64,000 nucleotides of DNA from Terriglobia bacterium (GTDB taxonomy: Bacteria; Acidobacteriota; UBA6911), in assembly GCA_020072565.1 (NCBI GenBank), contig JAIQGI010000002.1, positions 1-64,000 of the forward strand. Direction: 5' to 3'. Both the position numbers and the translations under genes were made by a program. Numbering within the stretch: the stretch's first letter is position 1; every line of letters starts with the position of its first letter. Below the pieces are notes generated by a model. It saw only the letters and a list, made by a program, of their open reading frames with translations. It did not search any database and was not told the origin of the DNA. Below, in pieces: positions 4,335 to 10,882 of this stretch.

Positions 4335-5357
4335 TTACGGATGGTAATCCGGATTGCCGTGAGGAGCCCCTTGTTGTTTGAACGCGGAATTTATCCGCAA
4401 ATCTTCTTCCACCATCTCGCGCACCAGGTCTTCGAAGGTGACCCGATAGTCCCATCCCAGATGCCTCCGCGCCAGCGAAGCATCGCCTTGAAGGATGTCG
4501 ATCTCTGCCGGCCGAAAGAGCTTCGGATCAATGGTGACGAAATCCCTATAGTCCAAGTCGACATAGGAGAAAGCGAGAGAGGCGAACTCGGCGACGGAAT
4601 GGGTCTCGCCGGTGGCTACTACGTAATCTCCCGGAGTGTCCTGCTGCAACATCAACCACATGGCCTTCACGTACTCCTTAGCGTGGCCCCAGTCTCGCTT
4701 TGCCTCGAGGTTTCCGAGCGGGAGATCTCGTGCCAGGCCCAACTTGATGCGGGCGGCGTGCGAGGTGATCTTGCGGGAGACAAATTCATAACCTCGGCGC
4801 GGAGACTCGTGATTGTAGAGAATGCCATTGGAAGCGTGCACCCCATAGGCTTCTCGATAGTTCCGGGTCAGCTCGAAGCCGGCCACCTTGGAGATGCCGT
4901 AAGCCGAGCGCGGGTGGAACCTCGTGCTCTCATTCTGCGGGACTTCCGCAGCGCGGCCGAACATCTCGCTGGAGCCCGCGAAATAGAACCTGCAGCTCGG
5001 GACCAGATCGTGGATCGCGGCCAGAAGGTAGTGCGTGCCGTTGATGTTGGTGTTGAGCGTGGAGAACTCGTCTTCGAAGGAGTAGCTGACGAAGCTCTGA
5101 GCCGCCAGATGGTAACATTCGTCCGGACGCACCGCCCGCATCACGCGATACATGCTGGCGAAGCTCTCGAGCGAAGCCGAATGAATCTCAATTTCCCCCA
5201 GGAGATGGCGAATCCTCCAGAGGTGGTGCTCCGGATCTTCGAGGGCGACACGACGGACAAAGCCTTGCACTCTGTACCCCTTTGAGAGCAGAAGTTCCGC
5301 GAGATAGGACCCATCCTGTCCTGTAATGCCGGTGATGAGAGCAACTCTCTCGCTCAT
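4335..5357 (-). CDS. gmd: GDP-mannose 4,6-dehydratase
   Basis: A 340-residue extended short-chain dehydrogenase converting GDP-D-mannose to GDP-4-dehydro-6-deoxy-D-mannose, the first step to GDP-fucose, GDP-rhamnose or perosamine. Visible features are the nucleotide-binding GITGQDGSYLAELL, the active-site Y-x3-K in 'SAYGISKVAGF', 'ILYNHESPRRGYEFVSRKIT', and 'GNLEAKRDWGHAKEYVKAMW', all diagnostic of Gmd. I chose the ATG at 5357 (MSERVALITG), because twelve extra upstream codons do not belong to the family. It sits between the flippase and the TPR/GT-C gene. No GDP-fucose synthase or Rmd partner is in the window, so the final sugar is unknown. Confidence 0.95.
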   Translation of the reverse strand: MSERVALITGITGQDGSYLAELLLSKGYRVQGFVRRVALEDPEHHLWRIRHLLGEIEIHSASLESFASMYRVMRAVRPDECYHLAAQSFVSYSFEDEFSTLNTNINGTHYLLAAIHDLVPSCRFYFAGSSEMFGRAAEVPQNESTRFHPRSAYGISKVAGFELTRNYREAYGVHASNGILYNHESPRRGYEFVSRKITSHAARIKLGLARDLPLGNLEAKRDWGHAKEYVKAMWLMLQQDTPGDYVVATGETHSVAEFASLAFSYVDLDYRDFVTIDPKLFRPAEIDILQGDASLARRHLGWDYRVTFEDLVREMVEEDLRINSAFKQQGAPHGNPDYHP

Positions 5358-6970: not shown

Positions 6971-8326
6971 CTATTTGATCCTCCTATAAATGTTGAAACC
7001 TAAAGAGACGTCACTGTTGTCGGCATTCACGGCGTACTTGGACGGGCCGAAATCCCGGCTCGTGGAAACCAGGATGGTAAAGACATGTGCCGGCGTTCGA
7101 ATCTCGAGGCCACCTGAAAATTCCGGTTGACGCTTCACGAATCCGCCGAAGCCCGCAAGACGCGGTACAATTTCACCTATGAGAGACAGCCTTTCGTTCA
7201 GTGCTATGTCAGCTCCCAGTCCCAGGGAAAATGTCTGATCACTGCCGGGATTGATTACCCGCGTGCGGGAGGTCCTCACCAACGTGTCGTCACGGCTGTT
7301 GAACACGGCAGTAGGGACGACGTGAAGGCGCAAGGCCTTATAATCAAAAGAGGTCGCCAGCTGAACGAAGGGCGAAAACTGCTTTTCGAAATTGTTTTTG
7401 CCTTCTACTCCGGCGAGCAACGACATCTTCCAGAATGAATTCCTGCGGGTCTGCAATTCATAGGTGCCGTTGAAGTTGATGACCTGATCAAACCGGGCGC
7501 GCGCAACCCCGGCGCTGAAACGGTTTGTGAACGCATAGTTCACTCCCAGGTTGATGTTGGCGCCGAAATCGATTCCAAAGGCGTCACCCGCACTGGAGTC
7601 TGACAGGGACTGGATGAAGCGATGCTGTATGTGAATTTCTACCGAACCTTTGTTCAGGTCAACAGGAGCCGGCAGATCCACAAGCTTGGAGGTCTGGGCT
7701 TGATCCTCGCTCCGGCCACCTTCTTCCCTGGATGGTCTCGCGATTGGAATATTCCCGGCCCCGCCCGATACACCGCTGTAGGCGCCTGCAGTATAGATGT
7801 AATCGCCAGAAGGGGTTCCGCTGTCATCGGCAGCGTTGCCTGCGGCGTTGAAAAAGACCGGGCCTCCCGAGGGATCCGGGGCGGTCCAGTTGAAATAGAA
7901 TTCCACGGGACCGTCGGCTGTCCCTTCGCGTGTTCCCGTTGAGGTGTGCTCGATGTACTGGACTCCGGCTTCCTCCTTAACCTGCGTGGTCGAGTCCACG
8001 GATGCCAGTTGCCCGGCCTGATTTCCGGATCGGGTATGACGGACCGAGAGTTCAAATCCCCACCGGGATTGACCGGGCTGCCCGACGATCACCGTGATGG
8101 GGTACACTTGACCCCGTTCATAAGTCTTGGGAACGCCCCGAATCTCGAACACTCCGCCGATCGTCCTTCCTTCGTCGAGCCTGTAGCTGCTGTGGCACTG
8201 ATGGCAGGTTGGCTCACGAAATCCGGCTGTATGACGCGGAAGAGGACCGGACGAATACCCAAATAGCAGAGCGACTGAAGGCAGTGTAAAAAGAGGAAAC
8301 AAGAGAACAAGTTTCTGCAGCTTCAT
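6971..8326 (-). CDS. exported 'choice-of-anchor' domain / beta-barrel protein with one CXXCH
   Basis: A 451-residue exported protein. After a signal peptide comes 'TCHQCHSS', one CXXCH heme-type motif. Next is a domain with 'GVPKTYERGQVYPITVIVGQPGQSRWGFELSVR', typical of the choice-of-anchor V/reeler-like domain. The C-terminal ~200 residues resemble the DUF5777 beta-barrel family ('IQHRFIQSLSD', alternating hydrophobic strands, closing 'VSLGFNIYRRIK'). The start is the ATG at 8326 with a strong TAAGGAGG Shine-Dalgarno; the longer frame upstream is not coding-like. It probably sits in the outer membrane with a periplasmic or surface head. Function is unknown; a monoheme c-type electron carrier is possible but unproven. 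Confidence 0.7.
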   Translation of the reverse strand: MKLQKLVLLFPLFTLPSVALLFGYSSGPLPRHTAGFREPTCHQCHSSYRLDEGRTIGGVFEIRGVPKTYERGQVYPITVIVGQPGQSRWGFELSVRHTRSGNQAGQLASVDSTTQVKEEAGVQYIEHTSTGTREGTADGPVEFYFNWTAPDPSGGPVFFNAAGNAADDSGTPSGDYIYTAGAYSGVSGGAGNIPIARPSREEGGRSEDQAQTSKLVDLPAPVDLNKGSVEIHIQHRFIQSLSDSSAGDAFGIDFGANINLGVNYAFTNRFSAGVARARFDQVINFNGTYELQTRRNSFWKMSLLAGVEGKNNFEKQFSPFVQLATSFDYKALRLHVVPTAVFNSRDDTLVRTSRTRVINPGSDQTFSLGLGADIALNERLSLIGEIVPRLAGFGGFVKRQPEFSGGLEIRTPAHVFTILVSTSRDFGPSKYAVNADNSDVSLGFNIYRRIK

Positions 8327-8508
8327 GGTGATCCTCCTTAGGTAGAGCTGCGGAACAATGTGATGCCCGGCGAGCCTTGGGCGCCAATGTGCATAGCTAC
8401 ATCCTAAACGCGGAGCGCAGCTTAAACAATGCCCGCGATTTGACAGAATGAGCGATGGACTGCCCGGACCCTGGGTAGATGAGAAGGTAAAACAGCCGCA
8501 GGATCCCT

Positions 8509-8536
8509 TTGACATTTGCATCCTTGTTGATATGAT
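8509..8536 (+). promoter_or_regulatory. sigma-70-type promoter of the aroF-tyrA operon
   Basis: TTGACA (8509-8514), a 16-base spacer, then TATGAT (8531-8536). This is close to consensus. The start of transcription would fall near 8543, just ahead of the leader-peptide ribosome binding site. Confidence 0.8.
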
Positions 8537-8558
8537 GGGCGCGGAAGGAAGGAATGAG

Positions 8559-8615
8559 ATGAGCCGGTGCTATTGCCGCTATTATTACCGTGGCTCACGC
8601 GATCGTAGCCCCTGA
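8559..8615 (+). CDS. Tyr-rich leader peptide of the aroF-tyrA attenuator
   Basis: An 18-codon reading frame, MSRCYCRYYYRGSRDRSP, then TGA. Four of the first ten codons are Tyr, three of them consecutive (8580-8588). AGGAAGG (8546-8552) stands six bases before the ATG, so it should be translated. TGAGCC (8560-8565) can pair with GGCTCA (8592-8597), and GGT (8566-8568) with ACC (8587-8589). The resulting pausing hairpin would enclose the Tyr codons. GCCCC-TGA-GGGGC (8608-8620) forms another small hairpin on the stop codon. The position between a strong promoter and a terminator before a Tyr-pathway operon indicates a control peptide. Stalling at Tyr codons when Tyr-tRNA is scarce is inferred. 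Confidence 0.85.
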   Translation: MSRCYCRYYYRGSRDRSP

Positions 8616-8657
8616 GGGGCGCGTTTCTCCTTTCTTCGAAGAACGCAAGAAAGCAAA

Positions 8658-8686
8658 AACGGCCCACCAGGCATCGGTGGGCCGTT
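8658..8686 (+). terminator. attenuator terminator hairpin before aroF
   Basis: AACGGCCCACC (8658-8668) is perfectly complementary to GGTGGGCCGTT (8676-8686), an 11-bp stem with a 7-base loop, followed by TTCGCATTTT. The aroF Shine-Dalgarno AGGAGA starts only nine bases after the stem, so the hairpin could also hinder translation. A candidate antiterminator pairs GUGGCU (8590-8595) with GGCCCAC (8661-8667) over a one-base bulge. It is weak and needs folding. CTTTCTT (8630-8636) with AAGAAAG (8647-8653), or GCGTT (8621-8625) with AACGC (8642-8646), may be intermediate elements. Confidence 0.75.
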
Positions 8687-8706
8687 CGCATTTTAGGAGA
8701 GCTTTT

Positions 8707-9735
8707 ATGATCATCATATGTGAGACCAAAGCAACTGAGGCGCAAATCAACGCAATTCAGCAAAAAATACGCGAGGCGGGCCTGGAAGTGCACCGGTCCG
8801 ATGGAGTCGAACACACGGTGCTCGGTGTTGTGGGCGACCGCAGTCTTCTGGACGTGAGCGCATTTGCCCTTATCCCCGGCGTCCGCGATGTGGTGCCGGT
8901 ATCTACTCCCTACAAACTGGCCAGCCGCGAATTCCATCCGGACGACACGTTGGTCCATGTCGGTGAGGCGGTCGTGGTGGGCGGAAGCGAGGTGATTGTC
9001 ATGGCGGGGCCGTGCGCGGTCGAGAGCGAGGAGCAGATCGAAGCCAGCGCGGAATTTGCGGCCCGATGCGGCGCACGGGTTTTGCGTGGCGGGGCCTTCA
9101 AGCCGCGGTCGTCACCCTACTCTTATCAGGGCTTGGGAGTCGAGGGGCTGAAAATGCTGCGCCGCGCTGCCGACCGACACGGACTGGCTGCGGTGACAGA
9201 GGTCATGACCATAGAGCAGATCGACATAGTGCGCGAATATACCGACGTCTTTCAGGTGGGAGCGCGCAACATGCAAAACTACCCGCTCCTCACTGCGCTC
9301 GGGCAGGCAGGGAAGCCGGCCCTCCTCAAACGCGGCATGTCTGCGACCATCCAGGAGTGGCTGATGAGCGCCGAATACATCCTGACGGCGGGGAACCCGG
9401 ACGTGATACTCTGCGAGCGCGGCATTCGCACGTTCGAAACCGCAACGCGCAACACCCTGGACTTGTCGGCGGTACCTGTGGTCGAGCACTTGTCTCATTT
9501 GCCTGTCATCGTAGATCCCAGCCATGGAGTCGGCAACCGCCGATTTGTCGTGCCCATGGCGCGGGCAGCAATAGCTGCGGGTGCTGACGGCATACTGGTA
9601 GAAATCCATCCCGACCCCGATAAAGCCCTGTCCGATGGACCGCAATCCCTGACATTCGAAGAGTTCGAGGCGCTCATGAATCGATGCCGAATCATCAGCA
9701 CCACCATAGGACGGCGCTTGGCGAGAGCGAGGTGA
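8707..9735 (+). CDS. aroF: 3-deoxy-7-phosphoheptulonate (DAHP) synthase, type I-beta
   Basis: A 342-residue enzyme joining phosphoenolpyruvate and erythrose 4-phosphate, the first step of the shikimate pathway. Residues 1-~70 form the ferredoxin-like regulatory domain known from Thermotoga-type DAHP synthases. The barrel follows with '[13 protein letters not shown]', '[19 protein letters not shown]', '[12 protein letters not shown]', '[21 protein letters not shown]', 'CERGIRTFE', 'VDPSHGVG' and '[17 protein letters not shown]', which together hold the substrate and metal ligands. The start is the ATG at 8707 (AGGAGA six bases upstream); the longer open frame covers the leader region. It lies one base before tyrA, behind the Tyr leader. 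In this family the N-terminal domain often mediates Tyr or Phe feedback, so control may act at both enzyme and RNA level. Confidence 0.95.
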
Positions 9736-9736
9736 A

Positions 9737-10882
9737 ATGAAAGACGCGAAGATCACGATTATCGGCTGCGGATTGCTCGGGGGTTCGGCTGCCCTGGCTC
9801 TCAAACGGCGCCGGCCCGACTGGGCCGTGGCATGTATTGACCTCGCCGAGCGTCTCCCGGCCATCCGGGAGGCGGGAATCACCGATGAAGTCGGAACTCC
9901 GGAGGATCTGGCGCGCCACTTGCCGGAGAGCTCCTTTGTTCTTCTGGCGATGCCCGTGCCTGCGATTATGGAGACCATCGAGCGTATTCGCCCCCATTTG
10001 CGGGCCGGCGCCATCGTCACTGATGTGGGGAGCACCAAGCAACAGATCATGGCGAAAGCTCAAGCGCTGATGCCTCCCGGGACTCATTTCATCGGCGGGC
10101 ATCCTATGGCTGGATCTGAGCGCTCGGGGGTTGAGGCAGCGGACCCGCTTTTATTCAGCGATCGCGTCTATGTCCTCTGCCCGTACCCGGACACGCCGGC
10201 CGACGTGCTGTTATCAGTGATGAATCTGGTAGAAGACCTGCTGGCACTGCCGATCACCATCGATCCCGAGGAACACGACCGGATCATGGCCATGGTCAGT
10301 CATCTGCCCCAACTGATCGCCGTCGCGCTGATGCATGCGGCGCAGTCTGAGGATGCCACACATGATATGTTGGATAAGCTTGCCGGGCGCGGGTTCATGG
10401 ACATGACACGCCTTGCAGCATCTGACTACGGGATCTGGATGGGGATCCTGGAGACCAACAAAGCGGCGATCCGGGAATCATCCGACCGATTTGTCAGAAG
10501 TCTTGCCGCGCTGCTTGATAAAATGGTCGCCGGCGATGCCGCCCTGATGTGGGAGGAGGTCTGCCGGCGCCGCCGCCAGATGGGAGTGGACAGTTTGCCT
10601 CGAATGCGGAAGCCGGACTACCGCAGCATTATTGACCGCTGCGATAAACAGATACTGGGCGCGCTTGGCCACCGCATGCAGGTTGCGCGCAGGATCGGAC
10701 GCCTGAAATCACACCAGCAGGCGCCCGTCTCGGATCCTGACAGGGAACGGCGCATGGTTGCCCAGCGCGGGGAATGGGGGAAGGCGCTCGGCCTGCCGCC
10801 AGAGCTGATCAACGAACTTTTTGCGGTAATCATCAGACACAGTACCCACATTCAGGCTACGGAACGTGGAGCTGCGCCATGA
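9737..10882 (+). CDS. tyrA: prephenate dehydrogenase-chorismate mutase fusion
   Basis: A 381-residue bifunctional enzyme for the Tyr branch. Residues 1-~290 are prephenate dehydrogenase: Rossmann motif '[12 protein letters not shown]', '[11 protein letters not shown]', and '[21 protein letters not shown]' with the catalytic His. Residues ~295-381 are an AroQ-type chorismate mutase ('[30 protein letters not shown]', then 'DPDRERRM'). The order is dehydrogenase first and mutase last, the opposite of the Escherichia coli TyrA fusion. No ACT domain is seen. It starts one base after the aroF stop with GAGGTG ahead, and its stop overlaps the mntP start (ATGA). It should be co-transcribed and co-attenuated with aroF. 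Confidence 0.93.

Follow-up and report, generated by a model that had tools for sequence, protein, structure and literature searches.

In an uncultured Terriglobia bacterium of the phylum Acidobacteriota, aroF and tyrA lie in tandem within the stretch of DNA analysed here, a window of 64,000 nucleotides. They are separated from a divergent minus-strand gene (6971-8329, start inferred) by an intergenic space, 8330-8706, that holds a promoter, a short open reading frame (ORF) rich in tyrosine codons and a perfect hairpin (Table 1). The divergent 516-aa ORF had been listed as 6971-8521; its probable start, which is signal-peptide-like, is at 8329, and it therefore probably does not overlap the leader promoter.

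An earlier note on this DNA had described a near-consensus promoter (8509-8536), a ribosome site with an 18-codon leader peptide carrying Tyr at codons 5, 8, 9 and 10, and a perfect 11-bp terminator hairpin (8658-8686), in that order before DAHP synthase and TyrA. Promoter, leader and hairpin stem can all be read directly, and the family matches (TIGR01361/NF006421) place aroF ahead of tyrA-chorismate mutase. The promoter matches 11 of 12 consensus positions and has a TG one base before TATGAT, although a consensus scan gave no more promoter-like sites than chance would (2 found versus 2.6 expected). The presumed RNA start was placed from the -10 box. The Tyr codons are at 8571, 8580, 8583 and 8586, amounting to four in 17 codons (p = 0.0012 versus 2.9% Tyr in seven neighbouring proteins). 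An ORF with its own ribosome site is thus present between promoter and operon, and its translation is predicted. No Rfam family matches the leader region at gathering score, and the genome has no match to the T-box family RF00230 at E <= 1.

Table 1. Features of the window's aroF-tyrA region, and leader peptides of related genomes
Feature	Position	Strand	Details
Sigma-70 type promoter, extended -10	8509-8536	+	TTGACA 8509-8514, 16 nt, TATGAT 8531-8536
Leader Shine-Dalgarno (SD)	8543-8552	+	GGAAGGAAGG; from sequence; near presumed RNA start
Leader peptide MSRCYCRYYYRGSRDRSP-UGA	8559-8615	+	ATG 8559, 18 codons, UGA 8613-8615
Predicted antiterminator, 5' strand	8617-8626	+	GGGC 8617-8620 and CGTTT 8622-8626, one bulged G; directly past leader UGA
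Inner pyrimidine:purine stem	8630-8653	+	8630-8638 with 8644-8653; joins antiterminator strands
Predicted antiterminator, 3' strand	8657-8665	+	Overlaps terminator 5' arm; from folding
Predicted terminator hairpin and T-tract	8658-8695	+	Perfect 11-bp stem 8658-8668/8676-8686; -20.8 kcal/mol
aroF, 3-deoxy-7-phosphoheptulonate (DAHP) synthase	8707-9735	+	NF006421, TIGR01361; SD AGGAG, ATG 8707
tyrA, prephenate dehydrogenase with C-terminal chorismate mutase domain	9737-10882	+	Family matches
Leader peptide, G001			MNRCKCHYYRIPQESGP
Leader peptide, G003			MNSRFYFYYFGAFTTGP
Leader peptide, G006			MTVRYFYCRAYFKTDP
Leader peptide, G007			MSLLQGVYYYYSSYRPGP
Leader peptide, G009 (identical in G008)			MAVRYYRFYYRGYFKTDP
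Leader peptide, G010			MSRRFYYCFSSYATDP
Leader peptide, G011			MSLLERVHYYYGSHRPGP
Leader peptide, G012			MRAGFNYYCYSYKTDP
Leader peptide, G013			MNNRFYSYYYYGSYQTDP

Tyrosine-rich leaders in related genomes

A DAHP synthase search of 80 related genomes yielded nine aroF orthologues at 75-82% identity besides that of the window. In all eight with readable upstream DNA, the gene is preceded by a leader rich in Tyr that ends at a Pro-UGA stop within CCNUGAGGG; a pyrimidine tract and a hairpin rich in GC are also present. The ninth aroF, in G008, lies at a contig end. A covariance model, R1, built from the window and the eight readable relatives, found 11 full-length elements in 15 genomes of the family, one per genome, adding those of G011 and G008. 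Nine of these, including the window's, stand directly before an intact orthologous aroF. The G008 element is on another contig than aroF, with group II intron ends between the two, and the G011 element precedes an aroF truncated after 82-95 residues in its assembly. The truncation of the G011 gene (L041, from 1695) reflects either decay or misassembly.

The element is present in both genomes of the window's genus and in nine of ten relatives forming a larger genus. The tenth, G014, has an aroF fragment (69% identical) on a contig fragment, with no leader, and the three genomes lacking the element in two other genera have nearest DAHP synthases of 55-59% identity. A chorismate mutase-like gene precedes the DAHP synthase gene of G004 (by eye), and that of G002 has 5 nt of upstream DNA. 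Run over 396 Acidobacteriota genomes with stricter filters, R1 gave no match of full-length strength outside the 11; these score 100-143 bits, the next two matches (34.6 and 29.0) are on the opposite strand of known elements, and the rest reach at most 28.1. No such leader was seen in the 330-400 nt upstream of 20 less similar DAHP synthases (L011-L030; 5 nt only for L018), nor by eye at three of the six DAHP/KDO-synthase matches among paralogues in the window's own genome. We regard the recurrence in 11 genomes as the decisive evidence for the observation.

Some neighbouring arrangements are of a different kind. In the sister genus a gene of 668-680 aa, which begins like a chorismate mutase and ends as a DAHP synthase, adjoins aroF (L071-L075, L077); six upstream regions of the chorismate mutase-DAHP synthase fusion gene contained no consistent Phe leader. 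In another Acidobacteriota family, G047 (L029/L070) has an aromatic-rich ORF ending in PSYYWYSWYWFSPRG-stop, 270-320 nt before a DAHP synthase gene at 5285, with an inverted repeat over the stop and a near-consensus promoter ahead (by eye). Two other genomes of that family have no comparable gene.

The 11 leaders vary in sequence and length, and all contain two to six Tyr codons and end in Pro-UGA. Following the start, their residues include 43 Tyr among 179, with 23 Arg, 14 Phe and no Trp. With the near-copy G008 left out, Tyr accounts for 38 of 162 codons in frame, versus 0 of 152 and 1 of 152 in the other two frames; the in-frame excess has a binomial p of 1.5e-23 against 2.9% Tyr, a value that treats related leaders as independent, and single leaders can be inconspicuous (p = 0.077 for G001, with two Tyr). 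Because Tyr is nearly confined to one frame, we take the leader ORF to be coding. The excess of codons for the end product is therefore kept in relatives, as expected of a predicted attenuator, and the loss of Tyr codons or terminator in relatives, which the earlier note had named as evidence against its reading, is not seen in any of the 11 homologous leaders.

The signals ahead of the ORF are less uniform. The other leaders also have a purine-rich stretch before the ATG. In eight of the 11 the extended -10 motif TGNTANNNT lies 29-31 nt before the ATG; G003 has it at 49 nt, and it is absent from G007 and G011. A good -35 box is present in the window and G003; the other nine match at two to four of six bases by our scoring, and the box is not conserved.

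The composition also bears on which amino acid is read. The leader might be a general sensor of aromatic amino acids (both Tyr and Phe), with Tyr-only leaders such as the window's at one end of a range. Phe codons occur in seven of the 11 leaders (four of them in G003), the 29 leaders of the KSB1 genome's phylum described below have 119 Phe codons beside 136 Tyr in 785, and the Phe-Tyr-Phe leader of Corynebacterium glutamicum AroR is reported, in the accessible part of PMC11802643, to answer to Phe and not to Tyr. However, the leaders of the window, G001, G007 and G011 have neither Phe nor Trp, and Tyr is the sole aromatic residue present in all 11. We consider a general aromatic sensor unlikely and favour one for tyrosine.

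Predicted terminator and antiterminator, and a modelled switch

A predicted intrinsic terminator stands ahead of the first structural gene. The 164-nt leader RNA is more stable than its shuffled counterparts (z = -3.83; 0 of 200 shuffles equally stable), and since z falls to -1.57 once the terminator is removed (15 of 200 equally stable), much of the stability is the terminator's. Stem-loops of -17.9 to -26.0 kcal/mol are found in all 11 leaders, with T-tracts of variable quality: that on the plus strand of the window is modest, short and interrupted (GTTCGCATTTT), and several relatives have better ones (GTTTTTATTT in G011, CTTTTGTTTTT in G003).

The weak T-tract, together with a consensus scan that listed the window hairpin as a minus-strand terminator and no plus-strand terminator here, would suit a leader that is translated but whose hairpin acts on translation or RNA stability rather than on termination. 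We find this improbable, as the hairpin leaves the aroF SD uncovered and lies at a greater distance upstream in G003 and G007; the G003 hairpin cannot hide that site because it ends ~95 nt before aroF. The good T-tracts of several relatives also argue against it, as does a likely group II intron start in G008, placed by eye ~10 nt behind the terminator stem. Group IIC introns are known to choose sites right behind such stems, and in G008 group II families match both contig ends (RF02001 behind the aroF leader, L034; RF00029 before aroF, L007). That the hairpin is an ordinary terminator, bidirectional or serving the opposite strand, and the Tyr-rich ORF a product of chance, is scarcely credible: the minus-strand call and the divergent gene upstream would fit, but Tyr-rich ORF, Pro-UGA, antiterminator and hairpin recur jointly in 11 genomes, with Tyr almost confined to one frame.

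Under the attenuator reading, the terminator should have a competitor. The earlier note had suggested folding the leader for alternative structures and gave no antiterminator; alternative pairings, terminator versus antiterminator, are indeed predicted, the latter formed in the window by 8617-8620 and 8622-8626 with 8657-8665. Among the 11 leaders the partner is GGGC or a similar sequence right after the UGA, with a pyrimidine:purine stem between the strands, and the antiterminator folds have -11.2 to -20.6 kcal/mol. An inner stem of this type is in the minimum-energy fold of every one. The pausing hairpin proposed earlier (8560-8568 with 8587-8597) did not hold up: it can be drawn, but the window's nascent RNA is predicted to fold differently and the pairing is not conserved, a helix joining the start region to bases past the first Tyr being predicted in only six of the 11.

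The dependence of this choice on ribosome position was modelled by masking 13 nt from the first A-site base, with the ribosome placed at each codon, and folding the stretch of RNA between the ribosome edge and the last base of the terminator 5' arm, when the arm is just out of RNA polymerase. The CCC of the arm is paired upstream with a mean probability of 0.82 with the ribosome at Tyr, versus 0.05 with it at the stop (n = 11). The difference, 0.768, compares with 0.034 after dinucleotide shuffling of the intervening stretch (sd 0.096, highest 0.271, 200 sets). Some single leaders are not extreme, shuffles reaching the switch in 29 of 200 for G003, 23 for G011, 17 each for G001 and G008, and 9 for G009. 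Footprints of 9-17 nt change little (means 0.81-0.84 at Tyr and 0.04-0.13 at the stop), with G001 failing at 17 nt (stop 0.81). An antiterminator that excludes the terminator in a manner dependent on ribosome position is thus found by folding, as a prediction of the model.

Some aspects of the model are less classical. Stalling at later, non-Tyr codons also antiterminates. With no ribosome, seven of the 11 models give an upstream pairing of the arm of 0.70-1.0 (1.0 in the window) and the other four 0.02-0.07, and the textbook outcome of termination in the absence of translation is not reproduced; either untranslated leaders would read through, or co-transcriptional folding would differ from equilibrium.

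In seven of the 11, a G precedes CGGCCC in the arm; six of these pair with C in the antiterminator, and in six of the seven the same G could form only a G.U pair in the terminator, all pairs being taken from minimum-energy folds and hence biased towards pairing. A fixed-register count on a MAFFT alignment gave 86.4% of antiterminator positions paired, versus 47-64% in slid registers and 86.9% in column shuffles; because the count is not above the shuffles, we do not claim covariation.

At the level of DNA, a promoter, a leader ORF containing Tyr codons, a sequence able to form an antiterminator, a terminator hairpin and aroF-tyrA are established in this order. The arrangement very probably represents ribosome-mediated attenuation of aroF-tyrA transcription in response to charged tRNA-Tyr, with Tyr-tRNA as the putative cellular signal and the hairpin as a putative site of termination. 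With enough Tyr-tRNA, the leading ribosome would reach the Pro-UGA stop and cover the GGGC just beyond, leaving the terminator 5' arm free, and transcription would end at ~8690-8695. When Tyr-tRNA is short, the ribosome would stall at Tyr codons 31-46 nt upstream of GGGC; GGGC/CGTTT could then pair with the 5' arm, with the pyrimidine:purine stem folded between, so that no terminator would form and RNA polymerase would continue into aroF-tyrA. The operon is thus predicted to be on only when tyrosine is short. Pro-stop contexts such as that of TnaC slow release, and for this reason we suggest that the conserved Pro before the UGA may hold the ribosome over the GGGC segment. The Tyr-responsive attenuator envisaged by the earlier note is therefore well supported, with Tyr codons in 11 of 11 leaders, changing flanks and a terminator that is kept.

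Leaders in other phyla and before trpE

A scan for a Tyr-run ORF followed by a hairpin and a T-run, over the best 80 tyrA-context loci, gave 11 sense matches versus one antisense, and Phe-run matches had no strand bias (five sense, six antisense). Convincing examples outside Acidobacteriota are L087, L089, L099 and L105 (KSB1), L090 (same phylum) and L096, from a Spirochaetes MAG, in which the leader MIKSCGQIAGLTGYGYSYYYFKFII stands ahead of aroF-tyrA with aroF as the next gene. The next gene in the other five is chorismate mutase-like (by eye), and the L089 locus is without a DAHP synthase. Three further matches, L107, L139 and L145, were put down to chance (within tyrA; antisense; not ahead of aroF). 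Two genuine Acidobacteriota leaders, L082 and L084, escaped the strict scan.

In the phylum of the KSB1 genome containing L087, 81 of 82 genomes have some match. Among 51 regions upstream of aroF, one per genome and drawn from the higher-scoring part of the list, several being cut short, 29 have a Tyr-rich ORF with a terminator in sense and two in antisense (loci L087, L089, L090, L099, L105 and L193-L247). The same regions gave 32 sense and 8 antisense matches for Phe, 7 and 2 for Lys, and 6 and 0 for Asn, partly in the same ORFs. Applied to the 29 leaders, the ribosome model gave a difference of 0.47 versus 0.10 in 40 mononucleotide-shuffled sets (highest 0.275, sd 0.049). Not every leader conforms: L231 shifts in the opposite direction, and there is hardly any switch in L208, L223 and L228. 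R1 matches on 35 loci are weak (11.5-19.9 bits, versus 100-143 in the window family), and seven of eight rows fall on these leaders in sense, representing six leaders with one locus twice; these can reflect a shared make-up of Tyr codons, GC hairpin and T-run, or distant descent. With such leaders frequent in this phylum, the rarity that the earlier note ascribed to them is doubtful.

Leader-peptide attenuators are classical for the trp, phe, his, thr, ilv and leu operons (E. coli trpL, pheL). Like these, the element has a leader ORF with end-product codons, a predicted terminator before the first structural gene, and a stop codon beside a segment able to pair with the terminator 5' arm; unlike them, it has Tyr codons, is in a different phylum, has no Rfam family at gathering score, and in seven of 11 models stays antiterminated when untranslated. 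To our knowledge, the amino acids with textbook attenuators are Trp, Phe, His, Thr, Leu and Ile/Val, and tyrosine is left to TyrR and T-boxes. The same operon in E. coli, aroF-tyrA, is also under tyrosine control, but through TyrR, a DNA-binding repressor, with no leader peptide.

Attenuation-based control of E. coli aroF was once hypothesised (Camakaris 1980, according to the accessible part of PMC8632094), and the part of PMC1262725 available names T-boxes for tyrosine. C. glutamicum aroR-aroF has a leader-peptide attenuator (Neshat 2014) described as Phe-responsive and Tyr-insensitive in the portion consulted of PMC11802643; it too is an aromatic-codon leader acting by transcription attenuation before a DAHP synthase operon, but it differs in its Phe-Tyr-Phe motif, its response to Phe limitation and its host, Corynebacterium. 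The uORFC-13-1 motif, a computational find in the same accessible part of PMC8632094, likewise comprises a uORF with promoter, RBS and terminator ahead of aroF, but its codons are for Phe, not Tyr, and its genus is Acholeplasma. Predicted attenuators of Acidobacteria have almost no assigned function in the available section of PMC2965389. Among the matches listed, no Tyr-codon attenuator was found in the open-access literature searched, and the accessible parts of PMC4833913 and PMC8262941 contain nothing on Tyr leaders. The mechanism is not new; its tyrosine specificity, phyla and frequency appear to be new.

The same Acidobacteriota family has leaders before trpE. A script found a clustered-Trp ORF in ten of 12 trpE upstream regions, that of the window's genome (L174, G000:C3) being MIRTFQGYDYWYWRGVAACPLVCSLTVS, and the G011 region contains an ORF with two separate Trp (by eye), giving Trp-codon leaders in 11 of 12; in these 11, a GC-rich hairpin and T-run follow the ORF (by eye). 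A trp attenuator before trpE is thus predicted. With Trp codons before trpE and Tyr codons before aroF, the leader codons match the operon product both times.

The aroF-tyrA element recurs and has the look of a classical attenuator, with an uncommon choice of amino acid and a wider spread than the earlier note thought. We lean towards the view that Tyr-codon (or Tyr and Phe) attenuation is a common, unnamed control of aroF-tyrA in several uncultured phyla – this Acidobacteriota family, the KSB1 group and perhaps Spirochaetes – and that it operates alongside the trpE Trp leader in the window's family, such that each aromatic branch is read by its own tRNA. If so, a conserved Tyr-codon attenuator would fill the tyrosine gap among textbook attenuators, extend the leader-peptide mechanism to Acidobacteria and offer a ready tRNA-Tyr sensor. 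How often such leaders occur in the KSB1 group suggests that more attenuators are still to be listed, because uncultured phyla have been little searched.

In G010, the region upstream of trpE (L176) is cut by a group II intron end (RF00029), with the trp leader beyond the contig end. Given this and the intron in the G008 aroF leader, group II introns may favour attenuator terminators.
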